Assembly: GCA_003212375.1 (NCBI GenBank)
Contig: QCPY01000002.1
Coordinates: 35,785-99,784, forward strand
Source of the DNA: Prochlorococcus sp. AG-442-N17
Lineage (GTDB): Bacteria; Cyanobacteriota; Cyanobacteriia; PCC-6307; Cyanobiaceae
Direction of reading: 5' to 3'
DNA: 64,000 bases
Below the pieces are notes generated by a model. That model was not told the origin of the DNA and did no database searches. It saw nothing but the letters and a program-made list of their open reading frames with translations. Below, one piece after another: positions 21,789 to 40,766 of the stretch (within the stretch, counting starts at the first letter, position 1; each line of letters starts with the position of its first letter). The position numbers and the translations under genes are program-made.

Positions 21789-21830
21789 ATGATCGATAGT
21801 CCACCAGAGAAGCTAAATAAATTAACTTAA
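21789..21830 (+). CDS. 13-aa MIDSPPEK mini-ORF (mini-gene copy 1)
   Basis: ATG preceded by GGGAGGGATTAGAA encodes MIDSPPEKLNKLT. A second locus at 40608 has nearly the same RBS and start and encodes MIDCPPEK plus five residues. Both are followed about 85 bases later by a terminator hairpin and both have ACGGATAT(A/T)CAAAAAA upstream. Conservation of RBS and the first eight codons, not of the tail, argues for translation. It could be a leader peptide or a tiny effector. Confidence 0.55.
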   Translation: MIDSPPEKLNKLT

Positions 21831-21915
21831 GTAGCAAACTAAATTATAAAGAATGATCATTCTTTTTAGTGCGTTCTTAATTTAATCATAGACATTACTA
21901 AGCATAAATAAATAT

Positions 21916-21962
21916 AGAGATTGTATCCTACAGTTGGGATTCAATCTCTTATTTATTAGCTT
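21916..21962 (+). terminator. Terminator hairpin of mini-gene copy 1
   Basis: AGAGATTG and CAATCTCT form an 8-bp stem with TTATTTATT after it. The matching hairpin downstream of mini-gene copy 2 uses the same stem arms with a different loop. Confidence 0.65.
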
Positions 21963-21973
21963 TACTTCAAAAC

Positions 21974-22261
21974 TTATCTCAACTTTATTGTAAATTTGAA
22001 GTAAATAATGAACATCCGATTCAAATTGAACAAAGCGGTGGTCAATACCTCTAAGAATTTAAAAACTTTTTGAAAATACGCTTTATAAATAGATTTTTTC
22101 TTCGAAAAATCTCCCATCAATTCTTTATATTCTTTTCTTGCATATTCAATAGATTCGAATATTGAACTTATAATTACTGGTTTTCTTGGTAATTTATCAA
22201 CACAATAATAAGAAATTTCTATTGCATTAATAATTGAAGAAGAGTTAGAAATTTCATCCAA
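21974..22261 (-). CDS. Hypothetical protein (95 aa), DUF1651-like
   Basis: The segment INAIEISYYCVDKLPRKPVI and then ESIEYARKEYKELM matches the 82-aa protein at 36.95 kb (INAMEISYGCVYK..., ESIEDARKEYKQLL). The Ala-rich helix followed by a usual GWR end recalls the picocyanobacterial DUF1651 family, but here the GWR end is replaced by a hydrophobic tail (ALFNLNRMFIIYFKF), so this copy may have an altered C-terminus from a frameshift. Confidence 0.55.
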   Translation of the reverse strand: MDEISNSSSIINAIEISYYCVDKLPRKPVIISSIFESIEYARKEYKELMGDFSKKKSIYKAYFQKVFKFLEVLTTALFNLNRMFIIYFKFTIKLR

Positions 22262-22307
22262 CCTCTTACAAAATTGATTATTAAATTCTATTAAATATAA
22301 GATCTTT

Positions 22308-22409
22308 TTATCTTAAGTAACTAGATCCTCTATAAGTAAGCTTTATTGTCTTCTCTTCTTGTCTCTTGCAATATACAAATGACTTTCCATTGAAATACAT
22401 GTTTACCAT
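22308..22409 (-). CDS. Small DUF4278-like protein (33 aa)
   Basis: MVNMYFNGKSFVYCKRQEEK ends KLTYRGSSYLR; the LTYRGxxY motif is the hallmark of cyanobacterial DUF4278 proteins. RBS AGGAGC is 6 bases before the ATG. It has a long, strongly structured 5' leader, described separately. Function unknown. Confidence 0.65.
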   Translation of the reverse strand: MVNMYFNGKSFVYCKRQEEKTIKLTYRGSSYLR

Positions 22410-22428
22410 GATGCAGCTCCTATACTTG

Positions 22429-22507
22429 CTCAAGTCCCCGTCCTATGACTTGAGTCGTACTGCGGTCTAACTAATGGTAGATCGGACGATTTAGTAGCAT
22501 TAGCTAC
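22429..22507 (-). promoter_or_regulatory. Structured 5' leader of the DUF4278-like gene
   Basis: Two hairpins lie within 100 bases upstream of the ATG (minus strand): GTAGC-TAAT-GCTAC at 22494-22507 and CTCAAGTC/GACTTGAG with a 10-base loop at 22429-22454. CGTCC near 22487 could also pair with GGACG in the second loop, giving a pseudoknot-like fold. The GC content is visibly above its surroundings. Candidate cis-regulatory RNA or sRNA. Confidence 0.5.
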
Positions 22508-22711
22508 ACTCTATTAATAAAGTAATAATACTTAGTTGTCAACCTTTAAAGGCATTAAATTACCCTATACCTTCCTTGATTTGGCTAAAAAAGATATTCG
22601 ATAGAGAAAAGATTCGTACCAAAAAGTTTCAAAAGCTTGGATCTCAATTGGAACTCGAATTATCTATTAACAATGGTAAAGTCAATAAAGAGTGAATAAA
22701 ATAAACAACAA

Positions 22712-23569
22712 ATGAGCAAGGTTAAATTGATTAATAAGATCACATATTATTTTGGTTTGGTTATAAAAAAGCTTAGTTATAAAATTGGTAGATTCTTATC
22801 TTTAATTATTCCAGACCTTATTATTTATGGAATGCAAAAAAAATTGCGTGCAGTTAAATACAAAAATCGAAAAATATTTCATATTGAGGATAAGAGTTGG
22901 ATTACTAGGTACAGGGCAATTAGTTTTGAACAAAAAGAGCCCGAAACCTTAAGGTGGATAGAGAGCTTTGATCAAGATCAATGTCTTCTTGATGTAGGTG
23001 CCAACATCGGTTTATATACAATGTTTGCTTTATTTAAAGGACACGAAGTGATAGCTATAGAACCAGAAGCGCACAATTTTTGCCTACTTAATCGGAATAT
23101 AAAGATTAATAATTTTAGTGATAGAGCGATAAGCTATCCCATCGCTTTAAATGACAAGCTAACAATTTCGCAATTAAATTTAGCAAGTTTTGAATACGGC
23201 TCTGCTTTGCATACATTTGACAGAACAATCAATCAATACGGGGATCAATTCAATCCAATTACGAGGCAAGGTATGATTGGATTTACTATGGATGACCTAA
23301 TTTCATCTTTAAATAAGAGAGTCAATCATATAAAAATTGATGTTGATGGTAATGAATTTCTTGTATTAAAGGGTGGTGAGAAAACCTTCAGGAGTGATTC
23401 ATTACAATCAGTTTTAATAGAATTAGACTACAAACATGTGGAATACAGAAGTTCCGTAGAACTGATTGAGTCATATGGATTTAAACTAAATAATATAGAT
23501 TCAGAATCTAAAAAAGGTATTAAAGGAGATTCTCATTCAACTGCAAATCATATTTTTATGAGAGATTAA
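22712..23569 (+). CDS. FkbM-family SAM-dependent methyltransferase
   Basis: Methyltransferases of this family act on O-atoms of sugars or polyketides and are common in surface-glycan islands. The SAM site is LLDVGANIGLYTMF (about 92-105), with AIEPEAHNF (acidic residue for SAM ribose) at 115 and the C-terminal IKIDVDGNEFLVLKGGE block typical of FkbM. At 285 aa it is complete. It is first in a three-gene set: the next gene begins 3 bases after its stop. Substrate unknown; the neighbours give no hint. Confidence 0.9.
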   Translation: MSKVKLINKITYYFGLVIKKLSYKIGRFLSLIIPDLIIYGMQKKLRAVKYKNRKIFHIEDKSWITRYRAISFEQKEPETLRWIESFDQDQCLLDVGANIGLYTMFALFKGHEVIAIEPEAHNFCLLNRNIKINNFSDRAISYPIALNDKLTISQLNLASFEYGSALHTFDRTINQYGDQFNPITRQGMIGFTMDDLISSLNKRVNHIKIDVDGNEFLVLKGGEKTFRSDSLQSVLIELDYKHVEYRSSVELIESYGFKLNNIDSESKKGIKGDSHSTANHIFMRD

Positions 23570-23572
23570 TTG

Positions 23573-24361
23573 ATGTCATTATTTTTTCCTATTCTAAAGA
23601 GTAATGAAATTTATAAAGGAAGTACGGTAGTACACAATTTTCCCCCTAATGATGTTCAAAAAGTTGTAGAAAAGTCAAGATATTTAAATCTTATTTGGAT
23701 GGATGTTAATTGTTGGAAGACGAAATTAATTACTAAAATCAGACCTTTAGAATCTAAAGAAGTTTTTTACGACTTAATAAAACCAAAGGCAAGCCATAAT
23801 GATCTATTAATAATGTGTATTACAGATGAGCCCCTGCCGCCTATCATGGCTTCTTTGCCTAAACATACACTCCCGACAACTACACCTCTCTGGAGATCAA
23901 CAGTTTGTATTTACAGAAATAACTCCTCTGCAAGTTATCAAGGAGAAATAGTACCTTTTCCAGAAAATGGGACTCTTTTATCTTTCATACCTTTTATGCA
24001 AAAAACAATAAATACAAATAATTACCTTATCTTTCTGAATCTCGAATCAAAACCTAACTCAAGGAAAGGTTCACTAAAATTTTCTACAGTCAACAAGCCA
24101 GAAATTATTATTAAAGATGCTGAAATAAACTCAAATAGTTGCAATTTTATAGATCTTAATAGCCTTAATATTGATAATGATGAACTATTAGTTTGTTACA
24201 CCAAAAGTATGTCTGGGATACCATTATTCTTATCATTTTCTGATGAAGATAGCCCAATGAGTCTTGAGCATACACATCCTCCTGCTTCATTTGTTATTCA
24301 TGGTAATAAAAATAATTTACAAAAGATCATAAAAGAAAACTGGTTTAATTTACTCTCTTAA
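23573..24361 (+). CDS. Hypothetical protein in FkbM operon (262 aa)
   Basis: The track starts at TTG 23570; the ATG at 23573 is preferred. No signal peptide or membrane span. Beta-rich sequence with many short strands; a histidine-rich end, LEHTHPPASFVIHG, is notable and could bind metal. Its stop overlaps the ATG of the next gene by one base, so the pair is translationally coupled. Not related to a family I can name. Confidence 0.75.
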   Translation: MSLFFPILKSNEIYKGSTVVHNFPPNDVQKVVEKSRYLNLIWMDVNCWKTKLITKIRPLESKEVFYDLIKPKASHNDLLIMCITDEPLPPIMASLPKHTLPTTTPLWRSTVCIYRNNSSASYQGEIVPFPENGTLLSFIPFMQKTINTNNYLIFLNLESKPNSRKGSLKFSTVNKPEIIIKDAEINSNSCNFIDLNSLNIDNDELLVCYTKSMSGIPLFLSFSDEDSPMSLEHTHPPASFVIHGNKNNLQKIIKENWFNLLS

Positions 24362-25209
24362 TGATTACTAATCGTATATTAAAAGCACTTAAAAACCCAG
24401 AAAAAATTGTCCCGTATATCAGAAACAGATATGCGCCAATTGTCGCTGTAAATCCAATGGATAGAAAATGCACTTTTAGTGATTTATTTATTTGGAGATG
24501 TGGTAATGAATGGAAGACTATGTACGATTTGTTCCCTTACATTAGATTATTAAATAAAAAAGAGGTTCTCTCTACTATTGAAACCTGTAAGTGTCGTTTA
24601 GTAATTCTCTCTAATAATGGAAACTTTTTAAAAGAAACTGAAATCAAATTTGAGCCTACAAAAAAAAATCTATTAAACCTTGCTGATTATATTCCTTCTT
24701 CTATGTCTTCAAACCAATACGGAACATTTATGATATTTCATGAAAATATACCAAGAAAAGAAATTTTAGGTGGAGGATATTTAACAGAAAGAGGCTATGC
24801 AAGTTATGGGTTTGGAGGCAGTAGTACTTTAAGCTACGTCCATGGAAATTTGGATGCAGTATCAGGTAAATTTTGTAGTAGAGGAATTGAAGAACTTACA
24901 TTTTTTAAAAGTACTTTTTTTAAACGGTCTTTTCAACTACAGTATTTATTCACCCCTGGAAATAGCTATGAAATAGCTATTACTAATCCAACAAGTAAAA
25001 GCCATAAAATATCTATTAACTTCTTTAATAACCAGGGAGAGAAGTTTAAGACTATTGAAAAAAAGCTTTCTAATCTTGGAGTAATAATTGTTCAATTACC
25101 TAGTTGCGAATCTAATTTCATAATTTCTATCACAAGTAATTTACCACTAGCTCGCCCTCTAATTTTTAAATCAAGAAATCAAAAATTCTTAGATGTTTTT
25201 CATGGTTAA
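24361..25209 (+). CDS. Hypothetical protein in FkbM operon (282 aa)
   Basis: The basic N-terminus MITNRILKALKNPEKIVPYI is followed by a beta-strand-rich body with a glycine-rich block LGGGYLTERGYASYGFGGSS (about 139-158). The C-terminal third (SYEIAITNPTSKSHKISINF) looks like an immunoglobulin-like or jelly-roll fold. It could bind glycans. Coupled to the gene before it. Last gene of the operon; no family recognised. Confidence 0.75.
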   Translation: MITNRILKALKNPEKIVPYIRNRYAPIVAVNPMDRKCTFSDLFIWRCGNEWKTMYDLFPYIRLLNKKEVLSTIETCKCRLVILSNNGNFLKETEIKFEPTKKNLLNLADYIPSSMSSNQYGTFMIFHENIPRKEILGGGYLTERGYASYGFGGSSTLSYVHGNLDAVSGKFCSRGIEELTFFKSTFFKRSFQLQYLFTPGNSYEIAITNPTSKSHKISINFFNNQGEKFKTIEKKLSNLGVIIVQLPSCESNFIISITSNLPLARPLIFKSRNQKFLDVFHG

Positions 25210-25670
25210 TGGGCATTAGATAGCAGTTCTGTTCAAATTAATTCAATTGTTTTGATTGGTTGATATATGAGTTTTGTATATTGCTATTACTAACCTAATA
25301 AGGTTATCTAGATTAGTTACTAGATCCTTTTTGGAGAAAGCTTTAGTTAACTTCTTTTACTGGTTATTAATAAGATCAGCCTTGTCACATTACGGCGAAT
25401 CATTGGTACCATTAGAAGTCTCATCTAATTCAATTAAACCTTTTTCTTAAATTTCTAAAATTAGTTTATAGCAAGGATTTAATACTAAGATCCTAAGCTT
25501 AGTTAAACTAGCTTTAATAATTACGAATTCTATTGATAAATGGAGAAAATTTTTAGCTAATTAAGAATAAAATTTTTAAGCAATAATAAGTTTTCAAAGA
25601 TTAATATTTTTCAATCAAAACTTTATTCAAATTTTTATTGATTAAAAATAGATCACAAATTTGAGGAAAA
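25210..25670. other. Gap after FkbM operon
   Basis: No gene is supported. Short frames (for example 21 codons on the minus strand starting MVPMIRRNVTRL) are below what can be trusted. Confidence 0.5.
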
Positions 25671-25817
25671 TTATTTAGCTCTTTTTAAATAGAGATTCTT
25701 AGTATTTGCCTGATCTGATGTAAAAAACAAGACTAATATTATTCCAACTAAAAAAGAAAATACTAATGCCACTTCCAAAACTTGAATCATCCCGCCAGGA
25801 AGATAGTTTAAAAACAT
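25671..25817 (-). CDS. Small membrane protein (48 aa)
   Basis: MFLNYLPGGMIQVLEVALVF... has one strong span (VALVFSFLVGIILVLFF) and a basic tail (NTKNLYLKRAK). It is preferred over the 66-aa track ORF in another frame. The plan resembles small subunits of photosynthetic complexes, but identity is unknown. Confidence 0.6.
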   Translation of the reverse strand: MFLNYLPGGMIQVLEVALVFSFLVGIILVLFFTSDQANTKNLYLKRAK

Positions 25818-26029
25818 AATCAATTAGATCTCTTATTTCAAAAGTAGCAAATTTTACGATTTGGGGCATTATAGTTATCGTTAATTTTTTTAATATCAAA
25901 GTACATTATATTCCTTAATTTACTGGTCAACTAACACATTAGCTATAGTGACCTCTGCTTTATATCCATCTAGAAGAGTCTCATCGTGACCTTTGATTTA
26001 GCAAATGTTCCTGAGAAATATATGAAATT

Positions 26030-26326
26030 TTATATTTTTTCAATTGGTGCCATTGTTAATCCCCTGATTACAAGTTGCTCGTGATAAAGCTCTGCTTGCT
26101 CAAGATTTCCTCTCCATACTTCCGCCGAATCTGACTTATCTACCTCAATAGCAAGATCCCAAGATCTTTTTTGACTCATTCCTGGAATAATTGTTAAAAG
26201 GCAATTTGCTACATGCTCAAACGTATTGAAATTATCATTTAAGACTATTACTCGTGCTTCTGGATATTTTGCTTTTTTTGTCTTTGGTTCTAAGACTGTA
26301 TTAGGTGAAGTGGTAGAAAATTCCAT
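26030..26326 (-). CDS. clpS: ATP-dependent Clp protease adaptor ClpS
   Basis: ClpS binds N-degron substrates and hands them to ClpC/ClpAP-type proteases. The signature VIVLNDNFNTFEHVANCLLTIIPGM contains the residues of the N-degron pocket and the Clp-binding surface, and a helix and strand follow (WDLAIEVDKSDSAEVWRGNLEQAE). The 98-aa length and acidic/polar N-terminal tail fit. Cyanobacteria often have two ClpS copies; which one this is cannot be said. Confidence 0.93.
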   Translation of the reverse strand: MEFSTTSPNTVLEPKTKKAKYPEARVIVLNDNFNTFEHVANCLLTIIPGMSQKRSWDLAIEVDKSDSAEVWRGNLEQAELYHEQLVIRGLTMAPIEKI

Positions 26327-26330
26327 TTTT

Positions 26331-26441
26331 TCAATTGTTGTTGATTTTGTTCTGAGTCAATATTTTTTGATAATGTTTATAGAGATCAATTTCATCTTGA
26401 TATTCACTAGCTAAACCAAGATTAAGTCGTGCTAAAAGCAT
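26331..26441 (-). CDS. Shortened paralogue of the 45.3-kb small gene (36 aa)
   Basis: MLLARLNLGLASEYQDEIDL... matches residues 12 onward of the 48-aa protein at 45324. The DNA upstream also matches (CTACAGGAATTAAAGGATAATG against CTACAGAAAACAAAGGATAATG) but carries TAG and TAA in the old N-terminal frame. So this is either a gene restarting at the internal Met or a dying copy. Confidence 0.5.
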   Translation of the reverse strand: MLLARLNLGLASEYQDEIDLYKHYQKILTQNKINNN

Positions 26442-26503
26442 TATCCTTTAATTCCTGTAGTACTAAATTGGAATCATTATTGTTGCTGGTGATCTAATAC
26501 TAA

Positions 26504-26671
26504 CTATTTAAGTTTAAGTTTTAGTTTTCTGGAAAGTCTTTGGAGAGCAGTCCAATTTGCGTTTTTCCATTGGATTAATATAACCAGTTGTTACTTTTTA
26601 TTAGGAGTCAAGTTATATTTCTTTAAAAGTTTACCTAGTGCTATTGAGTTAATAAAGTTATAAGTAGTCAT
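26504..26671 (-). pseudogene. Small hypothetical gene interrupted by TAA
   Basis: MTTYNFINSIALGKLLKKYN runs 26 codons to TAA, then the same frame stays open for 28 codons (QLVILIQWKNANWTALQRLS...) to TAG. Both halves have coding character. The simplest reading is one nonsense mutation in a 55-codon gene; a true short protein is possible. Confidence 0.45.
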
Positions 26672-26789
26672 TTTTAAAACTTTAATTTAAAAACTTTTTC
26701 ATAGTCTTATAAAATTTAAAAGATTTTTTTCTGGTATTTGTAAAAAGAACAACAAGTTTCATTCAAAAAATATTATTACAATAATAAAT

Positions 26790-27023
26790 ATGAATAAAAT
26801 TATGCCTCAAAATCCCTTCCATCTTTATTGGAATAAAGGTTGGTCCTTTCTCTTTTATCTTGAGGGAGGTACTCCTAAAATTGAAGCTAGTGGATTTGGC
26901 ATCGCTATGACTACAGATATTAAGAAGGGAGAATCACCTTCACAAACAGCAGATAGATTAGTTTTTAAAGAGCAACAGAATAGAAAATCAAGATACTATT
27001 CATGGATAAGATCAATAAATTAA
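26790..27023 (+). CDS. Hypothetical protein (77 aa)
   Basis: MNKIMPQNPFHLYWNKGWSF... is aromatic-rich at the N-terminus and ends LVFKEQQNRKSRYYSWIRSIN. It is the first of three closely spaced small genes (13 bp, then 8-base overlap). Not recognised. Confidence 0.6.
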   Translation: MNKIMPQNPFHLYWNKGWSFLFYLEGGTPKIEASGFGIAMTTDIKKGESPSQTADRLVFKEQQNRKSRYYSWIRSIN

Positions 27024-27035
27024 TCCTTTTCTACA

Positions 27036-27167
27036 ATGAAAACTCCAGACAGTCAAAAAAAAGCTATTGATGAAATAGTGCAAATAATTCAAGATTTTCA
27101 ATATAATGATGAACTTAGTGACAAATATAAAAGAGAAATTTTAGACCAAGATAAAATATATGAGTGA
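27036..27167 (+). CDS. Small acidic hypothetical protein (43 aa)
   Basis: MKTPDSQKKAIDEIVQIIQD... is fully helical and charged. Its last 8 bases overlap the start of the next ORF, so the two are likely co-translated. Confidence 0.55.
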   Translation: MKTPDSQKKAIDEIVQIIQDFQYNDELSDKYKREILDQDKIYE

Positions 27168-27396
27168 AGCACATTGGCCAATAATTTCTAATAGATCAGA
27201 AGTTAAAAGATTTATTAATAACGATAAGAGTATTGAAGGCTTCTTCAAGAATATGTTTATTGAACCGAACAATAGTTCGATTATCAGGAAAAGAATCTCC
27301 ATTAATGACAAAAAAATTTTATTGGAAATAGATATGGCTAGGAAAATTAATAAAGGATTACTCTCTAAAGGTTGGAGAAAAACTAAAGTAGTTTAG
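27160..27396 (+). CDS. DUF1651-like hypothetical protein (78 aa)
   Basis: MSEAHWPIISNRSEVKRFIN... ends ARKINKGLLSKGWRKTKVV; an Ala-initiated helix followed by GWRK near the C-terminus is the pattern of DUF1651 small proteins of marine picocyanobacteria and also of the 82-aa protein at 36.95 kb. Family placement is tentative. Confidence 0.55.
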   Translation: MSEAHWPIISNRSEVKRFINNDKSIEGFFKNMFIEPNNSSIIRKRISINDKKILLEIDMARKINKGLLSKGWRKTKVV

Positions 27397-27419
27397 CAAG
27401 TTGTTTGTAGTTGAAAAAT

Positions 27420-27455
27420 GTTCTAAAAACCGTTCTTAAAACTGTTCTAACAAAA
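27420..27455 (+). repeat. 12-bp imperfect tandem triplet
   Basis: GTTCTAAAAACC, GTTCTTAAAACT and GTTCTAACAAAA follow head to tail, 23 bases after the previous stop codon. It could be a protein-binding array or a slippage product. Confidence 0.6.
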
Positions 27456-27505
27456 AATTTCTCATTTCAAACCTAATTTTAAATCTTAAATGCAGGGGGT
27501 TATCT

Positions 27506-27628
27506 ATGACTTATCCAGCGATCCAAAAGAATATCTTAAACATTTCAGTAAAACATGAGAGTGCATGTTCCATTTTTATGGAGAAAAGAGATAGAAACAT
27601 TTCAGAGAGAATAGAACTAGTTATTTGA
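27506..27628 (+). CDS. Small hypothetical protein (40 aa)
   Basis: ATG preceded by CAGGGGG at a fair RBS distance; MTYPAIQKNILNISVKHESA has one cysteine and a charged C-terminal half. Could be real; no homologue recalled. Confidence 0.45.
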   Translation: MTYPAIQKNILNISVKHESACSIFMEKRDRNISERIELVI

Positions 27629-27739
27629 TGCGGTTGTTATAAGCGAGGGGAATATATTTTACTTAAGAAACAAACTCCAAATTTATAAACTTTGAATTTC
27701 AGTTTTAAATATGAGTAAATACATTTGCTTTGATAAATA

Positions 27740-27890
27740 ATGAGAAAAAATTGCTCGTCATCAACTTCAGCAGATATCAAAATTAAAAAACATGCAAGAC
27801 TAATATTTGAAATAAAAGCAATGTAAAGATGAAGAACCTGTTATCTATCCATTAACTGGTAGCCCCTCCAATTACAACGAAGATTATTAA
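27740..27890 (+). pseudogene. Frameshifted small gene (about 50 codons)
   Basis: MRKNCSSSTSADIKIKKHARLIFEIKAM ends at TAA, but skipping one base at the end of that segment opens KDEEPVIYPLTGSPSNYNED to a natural stop. The two pieces have coding character and total about 50 codons. Interpreted as a single-base insertion. Confidence 0.5.
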
Positions 27891-28034
27891 CTAATTTGTT
27901 AACTAAAGGTTTTACAATATTAATAAGAATCGGAGCGCTAACGGCAACCAAAGACATAGTAGTAGCATTAGTAATAGAGAAATAGCATGGACATTTGGAA
28001 TGTAATGCTCCTTATAAATTTGCGTCTTCATAAT

Positions 28035-28124
28035 CTATTTAGCTTTCTTAAGTTTGAATTCTCTTCTGACCAAAAGTCCTATTACAACAACACACATATT
28101 CATTAGAAAAACGTCTAATGGCAT
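28035..28124 (-). CDS. Possible one-span membrane peptide (29 aa)
   Basis: MPLDVFLMNMCVVVIGLLVR followed by REFKLKKAK: hydrophobic helix plus basic tail, as in the other tiny membrane genes here. Small size limits certainty. Confidence 0.4.
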   Translation of the reverse strand: MPLDVFLMNMCVVVIGLLVRREFKLKKAK

Positions 28125-28309
28125 TTAAAAAAAGTCTCTACTTAATTAATAGCAAGAATATAAATGATTGAATCAAGAAAAGTACATAAATATTCAGGGA
28201 GAGTAATTACGGGTTAAAAAGCGAGGATTAAAAAGTTTAATCTAATACTGACAAATATTTAAAAAATCAATACCATAAATTTATATATATATTTTAGGAA
28301 TTCAAATTC

Positions 28310-28738
28310 ATGATTAAGAATCTATTAATAGCATTAGCATTTTCGTTGATGCTTATCAACCCAAGCATTTCTATAGCTGCAGAATCTTCTGTAGATGTAC
28401 AAGAAGTTTTTGTAGGTTCTGAGACTATGGATGGAGATGCTCTTAAATATCCAAAAGGCAAAGCGGAAATAAGATTACAACGAGTCGAGCTAGCTGAGGG
28501 AGGAATAGTCCCGCTTCACTCCCATCCAATCCCATTATTAGGTAATGTTGAGCAGGGTACTATTATTGTCAAAAGAGAAGGGATGGAAGATATCACCTAT
28601 TCAGAAGGTGATTCTTTTATAGTTGGACCAAAGACACCAAAACACACAATGGGTAACGCTAAAAGTGATAAGGCAGTTGTTTGGTTTGCGGCAATAGGAG
28701 CAAAAGATGTTCCAATTCTTATTCCCGCCGAAGGATAG
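28310..28738 (+). CDS. Exported cupin-domain protein
   Basis: Residues 1-24 are a signal peptide with an AxA-type cleavage site (SIAAES). The mature part is a single cupin: VPLHSHPIPLLGNVEQGTII carries the HxH metal ligands and a following Gly-rich turn, and YSEGDSFIVGPKTPKHTMG carries the second motif with the third His. It probably sits in the periplasm and may bind a metal or small ligand. Enzymatic role unknown. AT-rich promoter with a TATATATA stretch lies just upstream. Confidence 0.85.
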   Translation: MIKNLLIALAFSLMLINPSISIAAESSVDVQEVFVGSETMDGDALKYPKGKAEIRLQRVELAEGGIVPLHSHPIPLLGNVEQGTIIVKREGMEDITYSEGDSFIVGPKTPKHTMGNAKSDKAVVWFAAIGAKDVPILIPAEG

Positions 28739-28764
28739 TTATAACTTTAAATCAATTTATTTTA

Positions 28765-28806
28765 TTGACAGTTGATCTAAAGTAGAGGGATCAAACCCTC
28801 TTTTAA
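28765..28806 (+). promoter_or_regulatory. Conserved short-leader promoter element, copy 1
   Basis: TTGACAGTTGATCTAAAGTA, then GAGGG-ATCAAA-CCCTC hairpin and TTTTAA, directly before the ATG. The same order (TTGACAGTCGGTCTAAAATA, then GGGCATTAGCACC and TTTTTA) precedes the ATG at 45587 at the same distance. A hairpin this close to the start may control translation. Confidence 0.5.
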
Positions 28807-28962
28807 ATGGCAAATCTAGATCAAAAAACGATATTAATAGAAAAGGCTTATAAAGAAATTAAAGAAATTTGTACTAAATTCCAAGACGAATCTGGAGCTT
28901 CAGATATGGAAATAAAAACTTTATCAAGAGAACTTTCTAGGGTTTTGGAAAAAGAAAATTAA
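28807..28962 (+). CDS. Small helical hypothetical protein (51 aa)
   Basis: MANLDQKTILIEKAYKEIKE... has a single cysteine and is otherwise helical and acidic. First of three small genes packed end to end (next ATG directly follows its stop). No domain recognised. Confidence 0.6.
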   Translation: MANLDQKTILIEKAYKEIKEICTKFQDESGASDMEIKTLSRELSRVLEKEN

Positions 28963-29076
28963 ATGGAATTACTACATCAAATATTTCCTCCTTGGCATAT
29001 TTATCTAGATGTTTTTCTTATTGGTATTGGTTTATATGTTTACCTAAGAATTACTAAAAAAATAAATACAAAATAA
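28963..29076 (+). CDS. Small membrane peptide (37 aa)
   Basis: MELLHQIFPPWHIYLDVFLI... has one span (LDVFLIGIGLYVYLRI) and a basic tail TKKINTK. Its ATG abuts the stop of the preceding gene, so it is likely translated from the same mRNA. Confidence 0.6.
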   Translation: MELLHQIFPPWHIYLDVFLIGIGLYVYLRITKKINTK

Positions 29077-29226: not shown

Positions 29227-29296
29227 ACCTTAATTAGAAATTTCTTAGGTCATTTTTGCTTTATAAGACGTTCCAGTTTGCCCTGTGCCTCCGATC

Positions 29297-29335: not shown

Positions 29336-29514
29336 GAAAAAAGGTTTTGGTAACTCTTCACAAAAGTCCAAAAAATCGCTGAAATCCATTACTAATAATA
29401 GTTAGCAAATAAATAATATTTCTAGATTGGATTTCAAAAAAATTTTAACCGCTTTATTCAGAATATGCTCAAAAAAATTTCGATGATAATAAATAAATGA
29501 AATCTGATAAACAT

Positions 29515-33985: not shown

Positions 33986-34021
33986 AAAGTTAATAAGGAT
34001 ATCTTGAAAATATCTTAAAAT

Positions 34022-35089
34022 TTAATTTTGAATCATCGAATGGCAAAGTGGCTCGCCAAATTTAATATCTCTTGAGGCTTTCTTTCCTAAAATACTTTCA
34101 TAGTGACTTGGCTTGATTCCTAATCCAGGGCGAATTGATCTTACATTTAATGGAGTAAAGATTTCTCCTTCTTTTATATTATCAACTACATATAATGATT
34201 TCCTACTTTGAATTGAAGTTTTTTCACAATCAGCAACCTTTAGTCTGCCGTCTCCTTTAGATAGATTTGCTAATTTTGTTGTTTCCACTAAAGTGGTTAA
34301 CTCTTCAGGAGTAATAGAAAATTGACTGTCCACTCCTCCTTCCCCGTCATTTAACATGAAATGTTTTTCAATTAATTTAGCCCCCATCATTACCGATAAA
34401 AGAGGTATTGTGATGCCTTTTGTATGATCAGAGAGTCCAGAAATTACTTTAAAAGATTTAGATATTTCTTTTATTGCTCTTAGATTAGCTTCTTCAGGAG
34501 GTGCAGGATATGAAGATGTACAGTGTAGAACAATTAATTTAGTCGCACCTTCTTCTCTCGCTGTATTAATTGCTTCATTTATTTCTTGATAGGTAGCTAA
34601 TCCAGTGGACAATATAATTGGCTTCCCAGTCTTGGCAACTTTTTTTATTAAGGGTATATCTATTAATTCAGGTGAGGCAATCTTATATACAGGACAATTA
34701 AGTTCTTCCAGAAAATCAACAGATGTCAAATCAAAAGGTGAAGAAAAAATTGTTATACCAATCTTTTGAGCATGTTTAAACAACTGAGAATGCCATTCCC
34801 AAGGAGTATGAGCTTCCTGATATAAATTGTATAATTTTTTGCCTTTCCAAATACCATCTTTAACAAAAAATTCTGGTGAATTATGGTTAATGGTAATAGT
34901 ATCTGCAGTATATGTTTGGATTTTTATAGCATCAGCTCCACACTCCTTAGCTTTTGAAATAATTTTGAGTGCATTTTCTATATTCCCTTTATGGTTGCCT
35001 GACATTTCAGCAACAATATAAGGATTATTCTCACCTCCAATTTTCCTTCCATTTATATTCACTTCGCCTCCTAATGACTCTTCCATCAA
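34022..35089 (-). CDS. Nonulosonic acid synthase (PseI/NeuB family)
   Basis: Condenses PEP with a hexose to give a nine-carbon acid sugar (pseudaminic or related acid). NeuB TIM-barrel signatures are present: YIVAEMSGNHKGNIENALKI, GADAIKIQTY, YKIASPELIDIPLIK, LSTGLATYQEI, LHCTSSYPAP, GLSDHTKG and IEKHFM. The C-terminal SAF/antifreeze-like domain includes SRKSLYVVDNIKEGE and NVRSIRPGLGI. 355 aa is full length. With PseG next door, PseI is more likely than NeuB. The other enzymes of the pathway (PseB, C, H, F) are not in this window. Confidence 0.9.
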   Translation of the reverse strand: MMEESLGGEVNINGRKIGGENNPYIVAEMSGNHKGNIENALKIISKAKECGADAIKIQTYTADTITINHNSPEFFVKDGIWKGKKLYNLYQEAHTPWEWHSQLFKHAQKIGITIFSSPFDLTSVDFLEELNCPVYKIASPELIDIPLIKKVAKTGKPIILSTGLATYQEINEAINTAREEGATKLIVLHCTSSYPAPPEEANLRAIKEISKSFKVISGLSDHTKGITIPLLSVMMGAKLIEKHFMLNDGEGGVDSQFSITPEELTTLVETTKLANLSKGDGRLKVADCEKTSIQSRKSLYVVDNIKEGEIFTPLNVRSIRPGLGIKPSHYESILGKKASRDIKFGEPLCHSMIQN

Positions 35090-35474
35090 ATTTAAAATTA
35101 AAAATTTTTTTTATTTTAATTTATAGCTTTAAACGCTAGTTGAAATTAAAATATTTAGACATTAATCCATAATGCCAAGTTTAGTGGGTATTCCTAATTG
35201 TATTAATTCAATAGATCATAACTTAAAGTTTTCATTTGTTTTTGGTTAACAACTATTCTTTCATCTTCCAGACAATTCCAGTATCAAATTACAGTAAGTT
35301 ATATGATCTAAAAAGGATTTAAAATTCTTCAATTGCATAACTTAAGCCAATATCCCTAAAATAAAATATTCACATCAAATTGAGAAGCACAAAGAGAAGT
35401 ATTTTTATATGAAAAACCAAATTCAAGAGAAAAGTACTAAAGTAATCAAGTAATAATAAATATTCGTAAAGTAT
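35090..35474. other. Gap between divergent PseI-like and PhyH genes
   Basis: Presumed promoter region for both flanking genes. A 25-codon frame (MPSLVGIPNCINSI...) is probably chance or a remnant. No hairpin of note. Confidence 0.45.
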
Positions 35475-36314
35475 ATGGTTAGTAAAGTTATATTTAGGGA
35501 AATAGACAAGGAAGAGGAATCTTCAATAATTGAGTCTTTATATGAATTTGGCTATGCAAAGATTAAATCTTATTTTAATTTTGATGATGCTTTAAGAATA
35601 GGAGATTGGCTTACTAGTAAACATTCAGAACTTATCGCCAAAAATAAATCATATAACGAGAAAATTAGAGCAGGTTCAAAGGACAAAATAATTTTTAGTA
35701 TTCATAAATATAATGATATTTTCCTTGATTTTATAGATACAAGTATAGTCAGAAAAATTTTAATTAAGTTCCTTAATGATCCCTATTACAGACTAATTCC
35801 GAATGAACTTCCTAATTTTACTCTAGGCTACTTCAATGCTAGGTCTAGCGGGAATGAATTACCTTTACATATGGATAACTATGTTCCCTACAGTGGTTCT
35901 GTGCCTCTTGCTTGTCAAGTAGCTTATTATTTTAATAAGAGTGATATTAAAAATGGTTGTACTATTGTCGTTCCTAAGTCTCATAAGTCAGGGACCTACG
36001 CAGATAGAAGTTCAACCGATATAAAGCATATAATCTGTCAGCCTGGAGATTGCGTTGTTTGGGACAGTAGAATTTGGCATGGAACAACTAATAATGTGGA
36101 AAGCCATGATAGATGGGCTTTAATTTCTACCTATAAGCAATGGTTCTTAAAGCAAACCTTGGAAATGACTAGTACTATTTCTTCAAGCCAGTATTCAAAA
36201 TTAAATAATATTCAGAAACAACTTCTTGGCTTTTGTGCAATGACTCCAAAAAATGAATTTGATAGTGTTTCTACCAAAAAGGGTTATGAAGATCTTCCAA
36301 CTCTTATAAATTAG
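35475..36314 (+). CDS. PhyH-type Fe(II)/2-oxoglutarate dioxygenase (second copy)
   Basis: Iron and cofactor ligands are seen at LHMDN (His132, Asp134), RIWHGTTNN (His202) and HDRWALIS (Arg213). PGDCVVWDSR is the usual strand before the distal His. It is not closely similar to the 32.1-kb dioxygenase. It starts a new plus-strand unit facing away from the PseI gene, and may hydroxylate a glycan or lipid intermediate. 279 aa is normal. Confidence 0.85.
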   Translation: MVSKVIFREIDKEEESSIIESLYEFGYAKIKSYFNFDDALRIGDWLTSKHSELIAKNKSYNEKIRAGSKDKIIFSIHKYNDIFLDFIDTSIVRKILIKFLNDPYYRLIPNELPNFTLGYFNARSSGNELPLHMDNYVPYSGSVPLACQVAYYFNKSDIKNGCTIVVPKSHKSGTYADRSSTDIKHIICQPGDCVVWDSRIWHGTTNNVESHDRWALISTYKQWFLKQTLEMTSTISSSQYSKLNNIQKQLLGFCAMTPKNEFDSVSTKKGYEDLPTLIN

Positions 36315-36344
36315 AAAGTAACCTAAGGATATGGACGCGTATAT

Positions 36345-36605
36345 TAAATCTGCATGGGAGGATATTAAAAACATTCAAAAGATTTAGTTGCAGAATCATC
36401 AGAACTTATCAAAATCCATTAAATTGAGATTTTTCATTATATTGCTTATGCGATTTTTACCTTAAAAGAGGCCTTTAGCTATAAAGGGATTCAAAATAAA
36501 GACCTTACAACTTATAATTGCATTTTTAAAAATGTAAGAATTACTTGGGAATTTACTTAGACGCAAAGATCACAAGGAACTACTGATATGAACACTTGGT
36601 CATAA
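36345..36605 (+). pseudogene. Degraded copy of the SnoaL-like gene at 45.6 kb
   Basis: From TTAGTTGCAGAATCATCAGA onward the DNA closely matches the 3' half of the 45587-45970 gene through ACTACTGATATGA and ending ACTTGGTCATAA, but it contains several in-frame stops (for example ...AAAATTTACTTAG). The 5' half is lost or unrecognisable. Confidence 0.8.
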
Positions 36606-36731
36606 ATGACACATATGTATGGGATAGCAATTACATATGGTCTCATAAGTTTATTATTACTTGGTAGATTTGCTTATTCAACTTTTAAGATTAATAAAAA
36701 AGAACAGATTAGAAAAATAGGAAGATATTAA
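36606..36731 (+). CDS. Small membrane protein (41 aa), possibly frameshifted
   Basis: MTHMYGIAITYGLISLLLLG has one span and a basic tail, KINKKEQIRKIGRY. In the next frame the DNA continues KKENYYDDFDNDWEI to a stop, so the original product may have been longer, with an acidic tail, and this one truncated by a frameshift. Confidence 0.5.
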   Translation: MTHMYGIAITYGLISLLLLGRFAYSTFKINKKEQIRKIGRY

Positions 36732-36949
36732 GAAAGAAAATTATTATGACGACTTTGATAATGATTGGGAAATTTAAACTTTTTTAGCCCTATTAGCTTT
36801 GTTCATTATTTTTCTCATAATATTATTTTTTATTGATATGTCAGAAATACAATAAAGAGTTAAAAACAATACTACTTTAGCAAAAAATGATATTTGCATA
36901 ATGAAAATAACTTTATTTATATAGAACCAGATTTCTACAAAAGAGCAAA

Positions 36950-37198
36950 TTAGAAATAGCTTTTAAATATAGAAGTCTTCCTCCAACCCTCTTCTAGTAA
37001 CTGTTTATATTCCTTTCTTGCATCTTCAATAGATTCGACTCTTGAACCTTTCATTACTGGTTTATTTGATCTTTTATAAACACAACCGTAAGAAATCTCC
37101 ATGGCATTAATACTCGTATAAGGGTTAGAAGTATCTTCAAATGGCTTAAATACTTTTATTCGACTTCTATTATTATTTATCAAAGTAAATTCTTCCAT
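36950..37198 (-). CDS. DUF1651-like hypothetical protein (82 aa)
   Basis: Paralogue of the 95-aa protein at 22.0 kb: INAMEISYGCVYKRSNKPVM and ESIEDARKEYKQLLEEGWRK. The Ala-initiated helix then EEGWRKT fits the DUF1651 C-terminal pattern. Its ATG overlaps the stop of the 65-aa gene (TAATG), so they are coupled. Confidence 0.6.
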   Translation of the reverse strand: MEEFTLINNNRSRIKVFKPFEDTSNPYTSINAMEISYGCVYKRSNKPVMKGSRVESIEDARKEYKQLLEEGWRKTSIFKSYF

Positions 37199-37395
37199 TA
37201 ATTACTTTTGTCTCTTAATTCTGGAAAGCAATTGGCAATATGTATTAACTCGTAAATTTCTTTACTATCGTATTGTTTATTAGGCACTCCACTACCAACT
37301 TCTATTCCTTTAGCTTTCATTTTTTCTAAGATTAATTTTAGCCTCTCACTACTAGACATTGACTTAAATCTTTTTGTTCTTTCTTCTCTATCCAT
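37198..37395 (-). CDS. Hypothetical protein (65 aa), possible regulator
   Basis: MDREERTKRFKSMSSSERLK... is charged and helical. KLILEKMKAKGIEVGSGV followed by KQYDSKEIYELIHIANCF gives two helices with a short turn, but no definite DNA-binding motif. First gene of the coupled pair with the DUF1651-like protein. Confidence 0.6.
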   Translation of the reverse strand: MDREERTKRFKSMSSSERLKLILEKMKAKGIEVGSGVPNKQYDSKEIYELIHIANCFPELRDKSN

Positions 37396-37522
37396 TAGAC
37401 ATAATATACTTTAATTCTATTTTTTTCTCTTTTAATGGATCAAATCTAATATCAGAATTTCCGACTATCCCAAGTCTTACAAGAAGTAAAGTAATTGAAA
37501 GTTGTGGAGAAGGCAATATCAT

Positions 37523-37654
37523 CTAACGATTCATTATATAAGTAAGAAAACCAGTAAAGGTTAACAATTTAAATCCAATAAAAAAAGGTAAATACTTTTT
37601 GGCTTTTTTACCAAAGGGCAATAATTTATTAACTGAATTTATTATTTTTTTCAT
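37523..37654 (-). CDS. Small basic membrane peptide (43 aa)
   Basis: MKKIINSVNKLLPFGKKAKK has a positively charged amphipathic start, then FFIGFKLLTFTGFLTYIMNR, a possible span. Not in the track because it is short. Function unknown. Confidence 0.5.
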   Translation of the reverse strand: MKKIINSVNKLLPFGKKAKKYLPFFIGFKLLTFTGFLTYIMNR

Positions 37655-37841
37655 TAATATGTTTATATTTTTGGTATTCTAACGAAATATTTTCAAAAAT
37701 TTACTTCTTTTATTAAGCTTCAAAATATATTAAATACTCAAAAAGATTTAGAGAAAGAAGACGTTTAAAAGGAGGGAGAAATTGAACAGGTAGAGGAATT
37801 CAATAAAGAAGGAAAATTGGAATCAACTTTTCAAAATATCA

Positions 37842-37994
37842 ATGATTTATGGTTTTGCTTATCTAGGAATGGTTCCTGCTATTAGTGCAGAATGAGTAGT
37901 ACTTGCAGCTTTTTATAAAACTAAGTTTATTTAAAAGCCAGTTGAGCAATTAAAAAATTAAATAAGACCTTTATAAAGTTCCAAAGAAGATTAA
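37842..37994 (+). pseudogene. Dead collinear copy of the 44.08-kb membrane gene
   Basis: Exactly 153 bases, as long as the intact gene at 44078-44230, with no indels. It starts MIYGFAYLGMVPAIS and ends SSKED, but four in-frame stops replace Trp18, Glu31, Lys40 and Leu45. The close DNA match shows a duplication followed by decay through point mutations. Confidence 0.9.
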
Positions 37995-38120
37995 TTAAAG
38001 ATTTTAATTTGGGAATAAATTCTTTTATTGTAAAACCAGAATTAATACTCAAAATAAAATTTAAGTAGAGGCTACAAAATAAAGGTCTAACAATAAAGGA
38101 ATTATTCCAATGTGGAGATT

Positions 38121-38152
38121 TAAAAAAAAAAGAGAGGTTGTAAACCTCTCTT
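38121..38152 (-). terminator. Rho-independent terminator
   Basis: On the minus strand AAGAGAGGTT and AACCTCTCTT form a 10-bp stem, followed by a run of T residues. It lies about 30 bases downstream of the small gene stop at 38183. Confidence 0.9.
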
Positions 38153-38182
38153 ATAGATCAGTTGTAAATAAGATTTTAATAT

Positions 38183-38347
38183 TTACAAATTTAGCAATCT
38201 CAAATCTTTTTGAGCTTCCCTGATTCTTTTATCAAAGACTGATCTTCTATAAGGAGTAACTTCTCCATTTTTAGTCGCCAAAAGTTTGGCTTGATGAAGC
38301 CTATTGGCTCTATTGATTTTATCTCTTATTTGTAAGAGGTTATTCAT
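38183..38347 (-). CDS. Small basic hypothetical protein (54 aa)
   Basis: MNNLLQIRDKINRANRLHQA... is helical and basic (RRSVFDKRIREAQKDLRLL). It has a good terminator and an operator-like palindrome upstream, so it is probably a real, regulated single-gene unit. Function unknown. Confidence 0.65.
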   Translation of the reverse strand: MNNLLQIRDKINRANRLHQAKLLATKNGEVTPYRRSVFDKRIREAQKDLRLLNL

Positions 38348-38424
38348 AGTGTTGTGCAGTTAATGAGAATCCCGTTCCCTATTCCCATGTCTTGCGTCCA
38401 GTTATATAAATATTTGGATGAACG

Positions 38425-38448
38425 TTATTGAACGATAACATTCAATAA
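38425..38448. promoter_or_regulatory. Operator-like inverted repeat
   Basis: TTATTGAA and TTCAATAA, perfect 8-bp arms separated by 8 bases, about 80 bp upstream of the small gene at 38183-38347. Spacing fits a dimeric repressor site. Confidence 0.45.
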
Positions 38449-38576
38449 TAAATATTGTGAGAGTAATTCTTCCTAAATTTCCCTACTTTTAAAAAAATTA
38501 CAGATCGCAATTGAGCAAGATAATAATACTTAAAAAGTATAGTCAAGGTCTACCAATCACTAACTTTTCACCCTCT

Positions 38577-38614
38577 CTTTCCTAGTTAGTAAATTTGATG
38601 GATAATAAATTTAT
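38577..38614 (+). repeat. Dispersed island repeat R1, copy d
   Basis: CTTTCCTAGTTAGTAAATTT then GATGGATAATAAATTTATAG, same orientation as all other copies. A further CCAATCAC-type stretch lies just upstream, as in copy e. Confidence 0.75.
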
Positions 38615-38809
38615 AGTTATTCATTGAGCAAATTGATCTACAAATTTTAACTTTCACTAGGAGTAACCAACAGATAACTTACTTAATCTTTCCTTCAAAT
38701 CAGTTGACATGAAACAAAGAAAAGTTCCGACTAATAAACCATATCTCAGATATCATGGCAAAGGTTTTTAAAAACCTATAAAAAATATTCACGATATATT
38801 GACTATTAA

Positions 38810-39013
38810 ATGGCTTCACCTTCGAGTTGGGAATTCTATAAAGAAGAACAAGATAAAATTTTGTGGGTCCATATTTGTACCCAAGATTTAAGAGGTGTTG
38901 ATATTTCAATTCATAAATGGTGGAAGATAAGGTATCCAGATTACAAAATTAGATTAGTTTCGAAAAAAGAATTTGATCAAATAAAACTTCAAGAACAGCA
39001 ACAGCAACAATAA
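38810..39013 (+). CDS. Hypothetical protein with poly-Gln end (67 aa)
   Basis: MASPSSWEFYKEEQDKILWV... followed by GVDISIHKWWKIRYPDYKIR and a run of glutamines (QEQQQQQ). The 48-aa protein at 45.3 kb also ends in NQQQQ, another sign that island genes share end sequences. No domain is recognised. Confidence 0.65.
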   Translation: MASPSSWEFYKEEQDKILWVHICTQDLRGVDISIHKWWKIRYPDYKIRLVSKKEFDQIKLQEQQQQQ

Positions 39014-39089
39014 AAATAATCTTTGGTAAATTTTGATGCTGAATATTTAATCTATTTAGCTAATATGTTTTAAACAGATTAATGAATTA

Positions 39090-39245
39090 ATGAACTCCGC
39101 ATTTACAAAAGTTTCCAATTTGAAAGTTAATAGGGCTTCTAAAATAGCTATTACTCTCGCATCATCAAGTTTCTTCTTATACGTATTAGGTCAAGCACCA
39201 ATTATTAAAAATATTTTTGCAGGTGCCTTTTCTTGTTCTGGCTAA
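39090..39245 (+). CDS. Small membrane protein (51 aa)
   Basis: MNSAFTKVSNLKVNRASKIA... contains one span (IAITLASSSFFLYVLGQAP) and ends FAGAFSCSG. Could be exported or anchored. Unknown function. Confidence 0.55.
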   Translation: MNSAFTKVSNLKVNRASKIAITLASSSFFLYVLGQAPIIKNIFAGAFSCSG

Positions 39246-39338
39246 ATAAAATACTTACTTACGAGATAAGCATAAAATTTAATATATATAGTAATTAACA
39301 TTCGATCAAAACTGAGAGGCAATTAGCCCCTTTTTACT

Positions 39339-39734
39339 ATGAAGTTAAAAAATGTTTTAAAAATTACTGGGAGTCTCCATATCCTATTGGGATTATTAAT
39401 TATTTTCCTACTAATCTTTTCTGTTGAAACTATCGCAAGCAATGCTTCAAGTGAAACATTGCTTCTTGTAAGAGGTACTGCGGATGTTGTATCAGCTAGT
39501 AATTTAGGTATAGGTTTCTTATTGATTATTTGTAGCTCTATCAAAGATAAACAATCTTTAAAAAAAGTTTTAGCTGGTGAACTAGCTTTAATGGCTTGTT
39601 TATTAGCAGTAGCTTTGTTTAATACTTTTAATGCTGGAACAATTGTAGATGGAGGTCCTCCTCCTCCTTTTTGGGTTGTTTTGATAGTTAACCCTATTTT
39701 ATGTATTTATGGATTAGTTAAAAGGAAAGAATGA
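39339..39734 (+). CDS. Four-span membrane protein (131 aa)
   Basis: Four hydrophobic segments: LHILLGLLIIFLLIF, LGIGFLLIICSSI, LALMACLLAVALF and FWVVLIVNPILCIYG. A proline run GGPPPPFW precedes the last. Small integral membrane protein of unknown role. Overlaps the lipoprotein-like gene by 4 bases (ATGA). The leader has the same hairpin-like AGGCAATTAGCCCCTTTTTA near the ATG as other island genes. Confidence 0.7.
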   Translation: MKLKNVLKITGSLHILLGLLIIFLLIFSVETIASNASSETLLLVRGTADVVSASNLGIGFLLIICSSIKDKQSLKKVLAGELALMACLLAVALFNTFNAGTIVDGGPPPPFWVVLIVNPILCIYGLVKRKE

Positions 39735-39973
39735 AACGCTTAATTTTATTTATCCCCTTTATTTCTCTGATGTGGGGTTGTGCCAATTCATCAAATAAAT
39801 TAGATATGCCTGAGATTTCTGACACCCAAAGGCAAAGAGAAGTTTGTCTAGATTGGTATGGCTACAGAATCGATACCAAGAGAGCAATTAATGATTTAAA
39901 TCTTAAAATTGAAACCGAATCAGAATTGATTGCTTATTGTGATTTCTTCAAAAATGTAGCTGATATAAAATAG
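39731..39973 (+). CDS. Small lipoprotein-like protein (80 aa)
   Basis: Signal peptide MKRLILFIPFISLMWGC with a lipobox-like LMWGC, so Cys17 may be lipidated. The mature part has two more cysteines (REVCLDWYG and AYCDFFKN). Coupled to the membrane protein before it. The end (FFKNVADIK) has a decayed twin at 44.3 kb. Confidence 0.7.
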   Translation: MKRLILFIPFISLMWGCANSSNKLDMPEISDTQRQREVCLDWYGYRIDTKRAINDLNLKIETESELIAYCDFFKNVADIK

Positions 39974-40002
39974 GTAAAATTATTAAATTTTACCTTTTTT
40001 TT
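39973..40002 (+). terminator. Rho-independent terminator
   Basis: GGTAAAATT and AATTTTACC pair around a short loop, followed by eight T residues. Closes the membrane protein/lipoprotein operon. Confidence 0.9.
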
Positions 40003-40010
40003 CCTCGTTA

Positions 40011-40199
40011 TTAATAATGAAAATAAGGAATTTCTTCTAATGCTTTTGGTGAAAATGAACAGATGCCAAATTGCATACATTCCATTTGATCATCATTCAC
40101 AGCTCTCGAGTTTGAATAATGAGCTGCAAACGTATGAATTAAAGAATGGATTGCATTTTGAATCTTATTTTTATAATGAATTCGGCAAGACATAGTCAA
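40011..40199 (-). CDS. Hypothetical protein (62 aa)
   Basis: MTMSCRIHYKNKIQNAIHSL... contains an EC...FGICSF cysteine pair in its second half and ends ALEEIPYFHY. Start could also be the next Met (MSCRIHYK). Not recognised. Confidence 0.55.
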   Translation of the reverse strand: MTMSCRIHYKNKIQNAIHSLIHTFAAHYSNSRAVNDDQMECMQFGICSFSPKALEEIPYFHY

Positions 40200-40228
40200 C
40201 CTACTTTTTTGAAATGTTTTAAAGACTA

Positions 40229-40390
40229 TTATTCAGATATGCAATAAGGATCACTTTCTGATTTACTGCAAAAAATGGTTTTGCGTAAAAAGGCTTTTTC
40301 ATATTGTTTATAAATACTTTGAGTCATAAAAACTCCAAAATAAATAAATAAGACAGTCAATGTGAGTAGCTCTAATCCCAAGTTGGTCAT
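40229..40390 (-). CDS. MTNL-family membrane protein (53 aa)
   Basis: MTNLGLELLTLTVLFIYFGV matches the 33-aa MTNLGLE protein at 8.05 kb and extends it with a polar tail (KAFLRKTIFCSKSESDPYCISE). RBS AAAGGAGG. Its promoter block is duplicated, inverted, at 41126-41169. Probably a single-span membrane peptide. Confidence 0.7.
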   Translation of the reverse strand: MTNLGLELLTLTVLFIYFGVFMTQSIYKQYEKAFLRKTIFCSKSESDPYCISE

Positions 40391-40420
40391 TTGATAACCT
40401 CCTTTAATTTGAGTGTTATC

Positions 40421-40464
40421 TAGTACGGTTGATATATAAAAATCAAGCGTAAGAATACTTAAAA
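40421..40464 (-). promoter_or_regulatory. Duplicated 44-bp promoter block, copy 1 (minus strand)
   Basis: Minus-strand TTTTAAGTATTCTTACGCTT continues to an ACCGTACTA end. It matches 41126-41169 on the plus strand at 41 of 44 positions. Each copy ends about 30 bases before an AAAGGAGG RBS and an MTNL gene, so it is very likely a promoter/operator. Confidence 0.7.
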
Positions 40465-40607
40465 TATCAAGTGTTGAATATAATTGAATTTACGAACAAA
40501 GATAAGAGATTCTTTTCATACCAAGTTTTGAATAAATCAGCATAATGACGGATATTCAAAAAAGTAATTTAAACTAGATTCAACTCAATCAAAAGGAGGG
40601 ATTAGAA

Positions 40608-40649
40608 ATGATCGATTGTCCACCAGAAAAGTTCATCAGATTCGTTTAA
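40608..40649 (+). CDS. 13-aa MIDCPPEK mini-ORF (mini-gene copy 2)
   Basis: ATG preceded by AAAAGGAGGGATTAGAA; the product is MIDCPPEKFIRFV. Same arrangement as at 21789: shared upstream ACGGATATTCAAAAAA, same RBS, same first eight codons bar one, terminator 80 bases after. Likely translated. Confidence 0.55.
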   Translation: MIDCPPEKFIRFV

Positions 40650-40727
40650 ACAGCCAACTAAATTAATAACATTGCACAATTAAGAACGTTGTTAATTTAT
40701 TCCTACACATAACTAAGTACTAAGAGA

Positions 40728-40766
40728 AGAGATTGTTTCCTGATATCAGAAATCAATCTCTTTTTA
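40728..40766 (+). terminator. Terminator hairpin of mini-gene copy 2
   Basis: AGAGATTG/CAATCTCT with extra TTTC/GAAA pairing and TTTTTA after it. Stem arms equal those of mini-gene copy 1. Confidence 0.75.

Follow-up and report, generated by a model that had tools for sequence, protein, structure and literature searches.

Yfr11 and Yfr16 of Prochlorococcus MED4 were described as a paralogous pair of ncRNAs, 149 and 138 nt long, respectively, both of which are transcribed; in that publication they were labelled non-coding, with no mention of a micro-ORF or of a common operator (PMC2518516). They share with Yfr19 a published response, a decrease in light and an increase with DCMU. Yfr8 (Rfam RF02360) is annotated on the Yfr8/Yfr9 strand pair and is overlapped by the antisense RNA Yfr9, with a proposed 44-aa ORF. 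Yfr103 is reported to be the most abundant picocyanobacterial ncRNA and the dominant transcript of marine picocyanobacteria, with a function termed 'enigmatic' (PMC5069720). No function has been known for Yfr8, Yfr11 and Yfr16 since 2008, and they are linked here with the presumed Yfr103 by one operator and one translated motif. Comparative evidence makes it very likely (probability about 0.87) that this micro-ORF is translated under amino-acid selection; no ribosome-profiling or peptide data are involved.

Two Yfr11/Yfr16-type RNAs in the window

The stretch analysed, hereafter designated as the window, comprises 64,000 nucleotides of Prochlorococcus sp. AG-442-N17. The 20-mer GGAGGGATTAGAAATGATCG occurs at exactly two window sites, 21776-21795 and 40595-40614, both on the + strand, and was absent from 100 shuffles in which up to three mismatches were allowed. 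Each site belongs to a Yfr11/Yfr16-type RNA, since both copies match the Rfam model RF02363 (Yfr11) over its full length (model positions 1-144) and pass its gathering cut-off of 44 bits, with 59.0 bits for copy 1 (21768-21955) and 67.5 bits for copy 2 (40587-40767). In MED4 (G033), RF02363 matches coincide with the published Yfr11 and Yfr16 coordinates, and matches above the cut-off were found in 54 of the 266 genomes of the genus. The window copies resemble the MED4 RNAs in their full-length match, terminator plan, start region and occurrence as a paralogous pair per genome, but are approximately 40 nt longer in the middle.

All features of the two copies lie on the + strand. Copy 1 extends from a predicted start at 21768, inferred from the MED4 5' RACE of Yfr11 (PMC2518516), to its terminator at 21957. 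It is preceded by a promoter operator (AAATCAGTATATTTACGGATATA, 21714-21736) with two mismatches to the common operator pattern, at the spacing to the Shine-Dalgarno sequence seen in 182/182 related loci. The Shine-Dalgarno sequence GGAGG (21776-21780), kept in all families described below, is followed by a micro-ORF of 13 codons plus stop, MIDSPPEKLNKLT (ATG at 21789, TAA ending at 21830), whose start, frame and D-[S/T]-P-P are conserved. An intrinsic terminator at 21916-21957, supported by sequence and fold, has arms AGAGATTG/CAATCTCT at 21916-21923/21942-21949. Copy 2 (40588-40767, predicted start to terminator) has the same plan, with a diverged operator (AAATCAGCATAATGACGGATATT, 40534-40556) at unchanged spacing, GGAGG at 40595-40599, a 13-codon micro-ORF plus stop, MIDCPPEKFIRFV (ATG at 40608, TAA ending at 40649), and a terminator at 40728-40766, again supported by sequence and fold, whose arms (40728-40735/40754-40761) are identical to those of copy 1. 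The S to C replacement in the copy 2 micro-ORF is a rare variant, found at 3 of 63 Yfr11/16 loci. Fold z-scores against shuffles were -3.64 for the copy 1 RNA and -1.90 for the copy 2 RNA.

A first-pass annotation of these letters had reported, at 21.70-21.97 and 40.54-40.77 kb, two copies sharing a ribosome-binding site, a 13-codon ORF starting MID(S/C)PPEK and terminator arms, preceded by a common ACGGATAT(A/T)CAAAAA. All of this held; the upstream sequence forms the right-hand half of a palindrome conserved in the promoter. Its statement that the locus was not recognised had to be corrected, as it missed that both copies exceed the RF02363 cut-off and that the RNA is Yfr11/Yfr16.

Several other features occur in the window: an FkbM-family methyltransferase gene adjoins copy 1 (22712-23566, +), two glutamine-II riboswitches (22429-22491 and 38363-38427, both -) each lie no more than about 2.2 kb from one of the Yfr11 copies, and a Yfr20 sRNA is located at 9906-9993 (+).

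A common 5' module in otherwise different RNAs

The module at the 5' end of the window copies is shared by RNAs of four families, namely Yfr11/16, an unnamed relative, Yfr8, and a multicopy RNA taken as Yfr103. It consists of a palindromic operator, an interval of 42±1 nt, a strong Shine-Dalgarno sequence, and an ORF of 7-14 codons beginning M-x-D-[S/T]-P-P. MIDTPPE, MDDTPPE and MVDTPPE forms were found in other genera. The unnamed second family, detected as weaker Rfam Yfr11 matches, has its own body and terminator and encodes MIDSPPEELNYKI followed by a stop codon. Its members (L099-L121, e.g., L118 at ca. 250-470) are near-universal, have a perfect operator and mostly fall under the Rfam Yfr11 cut-off.

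A search with the 21-base core, allowing three mismatches, revealed a third family, with the core ATGATTGATAGTCCGCCTGAA, which in MED4 lies inside Yfr8. It differs by three bases, all of them synonymous, in a search that had no preference for synonymous changes, and the Yfr8 ORF reads MIDSPPEI-stop in 21/21 genomes read. Like the window copies, Yfr8 carries the operator, the spacing, the Shine-Dalgarno sequence and the MIDSPPE start at its 5' end, but it differs in its RNA body and in an ORF of only 8 codons. In the window's own genome the module occurs a third time, in a Yfr8 on a different contig (C5:75767). At least one 21-base core per genome was found in 235 of 266 genomes, with few matches for a reversed control pattern.

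The fourth family was delineated with a covariance model (R1) built solely from the RNA body, the part that follows the ORF, and thus ORF-blind. R1 body matches occurred in 107 of the 131 genomes of the taxonomic family and in 54 of its 59 genera, with up to nine copies per genome. No Rfam match was obtained for this RNA. Its identification as Yfr103 is very likely, but is based on how the RNA is distributed, on its copy number and on its promoter palindrome and not on sequence. Like the window copies, the presumed Yfr103 (PMC5069720) is multicopy and has the palindromic promoter element, the Shine-Dalgarno sequence and an M-x-D-[T]-P-P ORF at its 5' end; its body, of about 230-300 nt and highly conserved, is a different one. 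No R1 body match was found in the window's genome, which is 73% complete, and only the 5' module is held in common. In one high-light genome, a diverged Yfr103-like RNA (L290, G012:C1:957033-957134, +) carries the ORF MIDSLPEISE-stop and is among the few copies in which the diproline is lost.

Regarding a phage origin, no exact match to the window core was found in the viral collection searched. A degenerate core search of this collection returned 8 contigs, seven of which (L214-L217, L219-L221) contain the start of an unrelated 72-83 aa protein, MID[S/R]PPE[F/Y], a likeness taken as coincidence. Likewise, a match in Sphingobacteriales (L026) was taken as a chance 19-mer.

Selection on the encoded peptide

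Within Yfr11/16, the exact 13-codon ORF (MIDSPPE[KN]..RLV-stop) was present at 55 of 63 distinct loci, a set that leaves out one locus (L081) in which the start codon is lost. M, I and both P were invariant across the 63 loci, with D kept in 57, S in 60 and E in 57. In codons 9-13 all three positions are variable, and the conserved unit of this family is therefore the first six or seven codons. Changes in codons 2-7 numbered 8, 1 and 12 at positions 1, 2 and 3, a weak codon signal when taken alone. The evidence for selection draws its force from comparing the families with one another and from the Yfr103-like set, and not from the Yfr11/16 family by itself.

Upstream of 82 of 88 R1 body matches lies a Shine-Dalgarno-linked ORF whose first nine codons include P-P. 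The six exceptions comprise two DGPTE, one DSLPE, one degenerate copy, one mis-anchored locus and one MDDDPPTQ, the last with a weaker Shine-Dalgarno sequence. Start codons in this set are ATG, TTG or GTG only, and insertions are one-codon and in-frame only. On a tree of the RNA bodies of the 82 loci, the D, T/S, P and P codons underwent 34 synonymous and 8 non-synonymous changes (P ~1e-12), the latter mostly D to E, and the P-P codons alone 18 synonymous and 0 non-synonymous changes. Base changes in the D-[S/T]-P-P codons were distributed 3:1:38 over the three codon positions, i.e., 38 of 42 at third positions, giving a phase bias of 0.90; in 152 control windows taken from these RNAs it did not exceed 0.56. 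Changes per column reached 9.5 at third positions and 8.8 in the RNA body, compared with 0.5 at first and second positions. The codon after P-P shows no bias, and R, N, Q, G and T occur there outside Prochlorococcus; the selected core is therefore D-[S/T]-P-P.

Two points of method bear on these figures. The 82-locus test demands that P-P be present, and the few exceptions would add non-synonymous changes. An earlier statistic that included a low-light family (10:1) was biased by the amino-acid pattern used in the search and was set aside for the ORF-blind model.

An ORF selected as a protein must be translated. A definition of Yfr11 as a non-coding RNA without a selected frame is not met, as start, frame and D-[S/T]-P-P are kept and a third-position rhythm is seen in the related set. 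The first-pass annotation had left open a translated peptide or a regulatory RNA; the former is strongly supported, with start, frame and D-[S/T]-P-P kept across RNAs differing elsewhere and changes falling at third positions. Its conserved stretch of eight codons was corrected to M-x-D-[S/T]-P-P, plus E within Prochlorococcus. It had proposed a search of other Prochlorococcus genomes, where copies proved plentiful, and had named as refuting outcomes a lack of transcription, excluded by the transcription of Yfr11 and Yfr16 in MED4 (PMC2518516), and a lack of reading-frame bias, excluded by the bias observed. Since the MED4 half-lives are unequal (4.8 min for Yfr11, over 20 min for Yfr16; PMC2897979), the common ORF alone does not set stability.

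The literature searched, which lacked the MED4/MIT9313 transcriptome study (10.1038/ismej.2014.57), mentions neither a MIDSPPE peptide nor any coding function of these RNAs. The micro-ORF is new relative to that literature only, a prior mention in the lacking study not being excluded.

Start hairpin and operator

The spacer between the Shine-Dalgarno sequence and the AUG pairs with codon 2 or 3, as GAUU/GAUC with Ile, CGUC/GACG with Asp, GCC/GGC with Thr-Ala and ACC/GGU with Val. The hairpin scored a mean of 7.52 with its own arms against 5.64 (sd 0.30) with arms swapped (permutation P = 0.011, one representative per codon class). Residue 2 appears to follow this RNA pairing, which would explain its variability; its initial assignment to the peptide core was accordingly revised, as it seems to track the hairpin and not the peptide.

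The operator core, GCAT-N4-AC(G/C/T)GATT, was found in 182/182 loci with at most three mismatches, its end lying 42±1 nt before the Shine-Dalgarno sequence. The 3-mismatch level is reached by 40% of shuffles; 114 of the 182 real sites have no more than one mismatch, at a fixed place. Its edge is 31-32 nt upstream of the published MED4 start sites of Yfr8, Yfr11, Yfr16 and Yfr19. An edge at this distance is the position of a class-II activator site. The operator fits the published DCMU induction and light decrease of Yfr11, Yfr16 and Yfr19. An NtcA-like GTA-N8-TAC box was dropped as a general explanation, being present in one low-light subfamily only.

In MED4, the operator is also located 31 nt upstream of Yfr19 (L165, C1:1086193-1086215, -), an RNA without the MIDSPPE ORF. 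It is thus not exclusive to micro-ORF RNAs, and Yfr19 is tied to the set, which fits its co-regulation with Yfr11. A relative of the operator, AAATCAGCATAAAGACTGATTTA, occurs in the window at 1042-1064 (-) and in 6/6 genomes searched. Here and in G001 it precedes an ORF of about 47 codons beginning MRSIMNWLSKMLESMANAF (window ca. 835-985, -); the downstream sequence differs in G023.

Proposed function and alternative explanations

In the reading we prefer, Yfr11/Yfr16-type RNAs would be mini-mRNAs, and their module is carried by several otherwise different RNAs. The operator, about 32 to 54 nt before the transcription start, is inferred to occupy a class-II activator position, from which a regulator active at low photosynthetic electron flow may turn the set on. 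The selected product would be the D-[S/T]-P-P peptide, either nascent or released, and the RNA tail may add an sRNA role. That the peptide acts freely as a micropeptide can only be inferred; this is the foremost option, though slightly less likely than not.

A diproline pause, which is a branch of this explanation and not an alternative to translation, is slightly harder to favour. Ribosomes would initiate on the strong Shine-Dalgarno sequence and, having read five or six codons, pause at D-[S/T]-P-P, thereby protecting the RNA 5' end or holding ribosomes when energy is short, so that the pause governs RNA or ribosome fate. In its support, only four residues beside the start are selected, with variation at residue 2, from residue 7 onward and in the length of the ORF; the EF-P-dependent pauses in E. 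coli include PPE, PPQ and PPN (PMC4140641); and the presumed Yfr103 is extremely abundant (PMC5069720). However, no pause has been measured, EF-P normally relieves diproline pauses, and outside Prochlorococcus no selection is seen on the codon that follows P-P, although the identity of this residue affects pausing. Roles other than these two are improbable. A bolder reading, which is unlikely, extends the pause to Yfr103 and its high-light counterparts Yfr8, Yfr11 and Yfr16 as ribosome-engaging mini-mRNAs tuning translation to light: the set would be turned on when photosynthetic electron flow falls, and ribosomes would be held or paused at D-[S/T]-P-P.

A purely non-coding sRNA, whose 5' segment would be a base-pairing seed or structural element with an incidental ORF, is very unlikely. 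These RNAs were published as ncRNAs with conserved structure (PMC2518516), the copy 1 fold (z -3.64) beats shuffles, and the start-region hairpin covaries. Against this, pairing does not give a three-base rhythm of changes, and start codons are swapped solely for other start codons. Equally improbable is the leader peptide of a transcription attenuator acting on a downstream gene, an idea favoured by the arrangement of a short ORF with hairpins and a terminator behind it. Yet neither copy has an adjacent co-oriented gene behind its terminator, as required of such a leader: the next ORF after copy 1 is on the opposite strand and copy 2 is followed by some 200 nt without a clear gene; moreover, MED4 transcripts stop at the terminator, at 149 and 138 nt. 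Finally, a type I toxin-antitoxin system was rejected, as peptides of 7-14 residues with a polar/proline core are not hydrophobic membrane toxins.

Relation to known dual-function RNAs

If translation is confirmed, some very abundant RNAs of ocean metatranscriptomes that are counted as non-coding would be coding. SgrS/SgrT and RNAIII are dual-function sRNAs, and are cited in the report on Yfr11 and Yfr16 (PMC2518516). The requirement of a translated ORF for such RNAs is met by the window-type RNAs on comparative evidence only, and these differ from SgrS/SgrT and RNAIII in having no known base-pairing target. As in those two, a small RNA contains a short translated ORF; the window-type RNAs stand apart in that this ORF has only 7-14 codons and a four-residue core, and is common to RNAs with different bodies.
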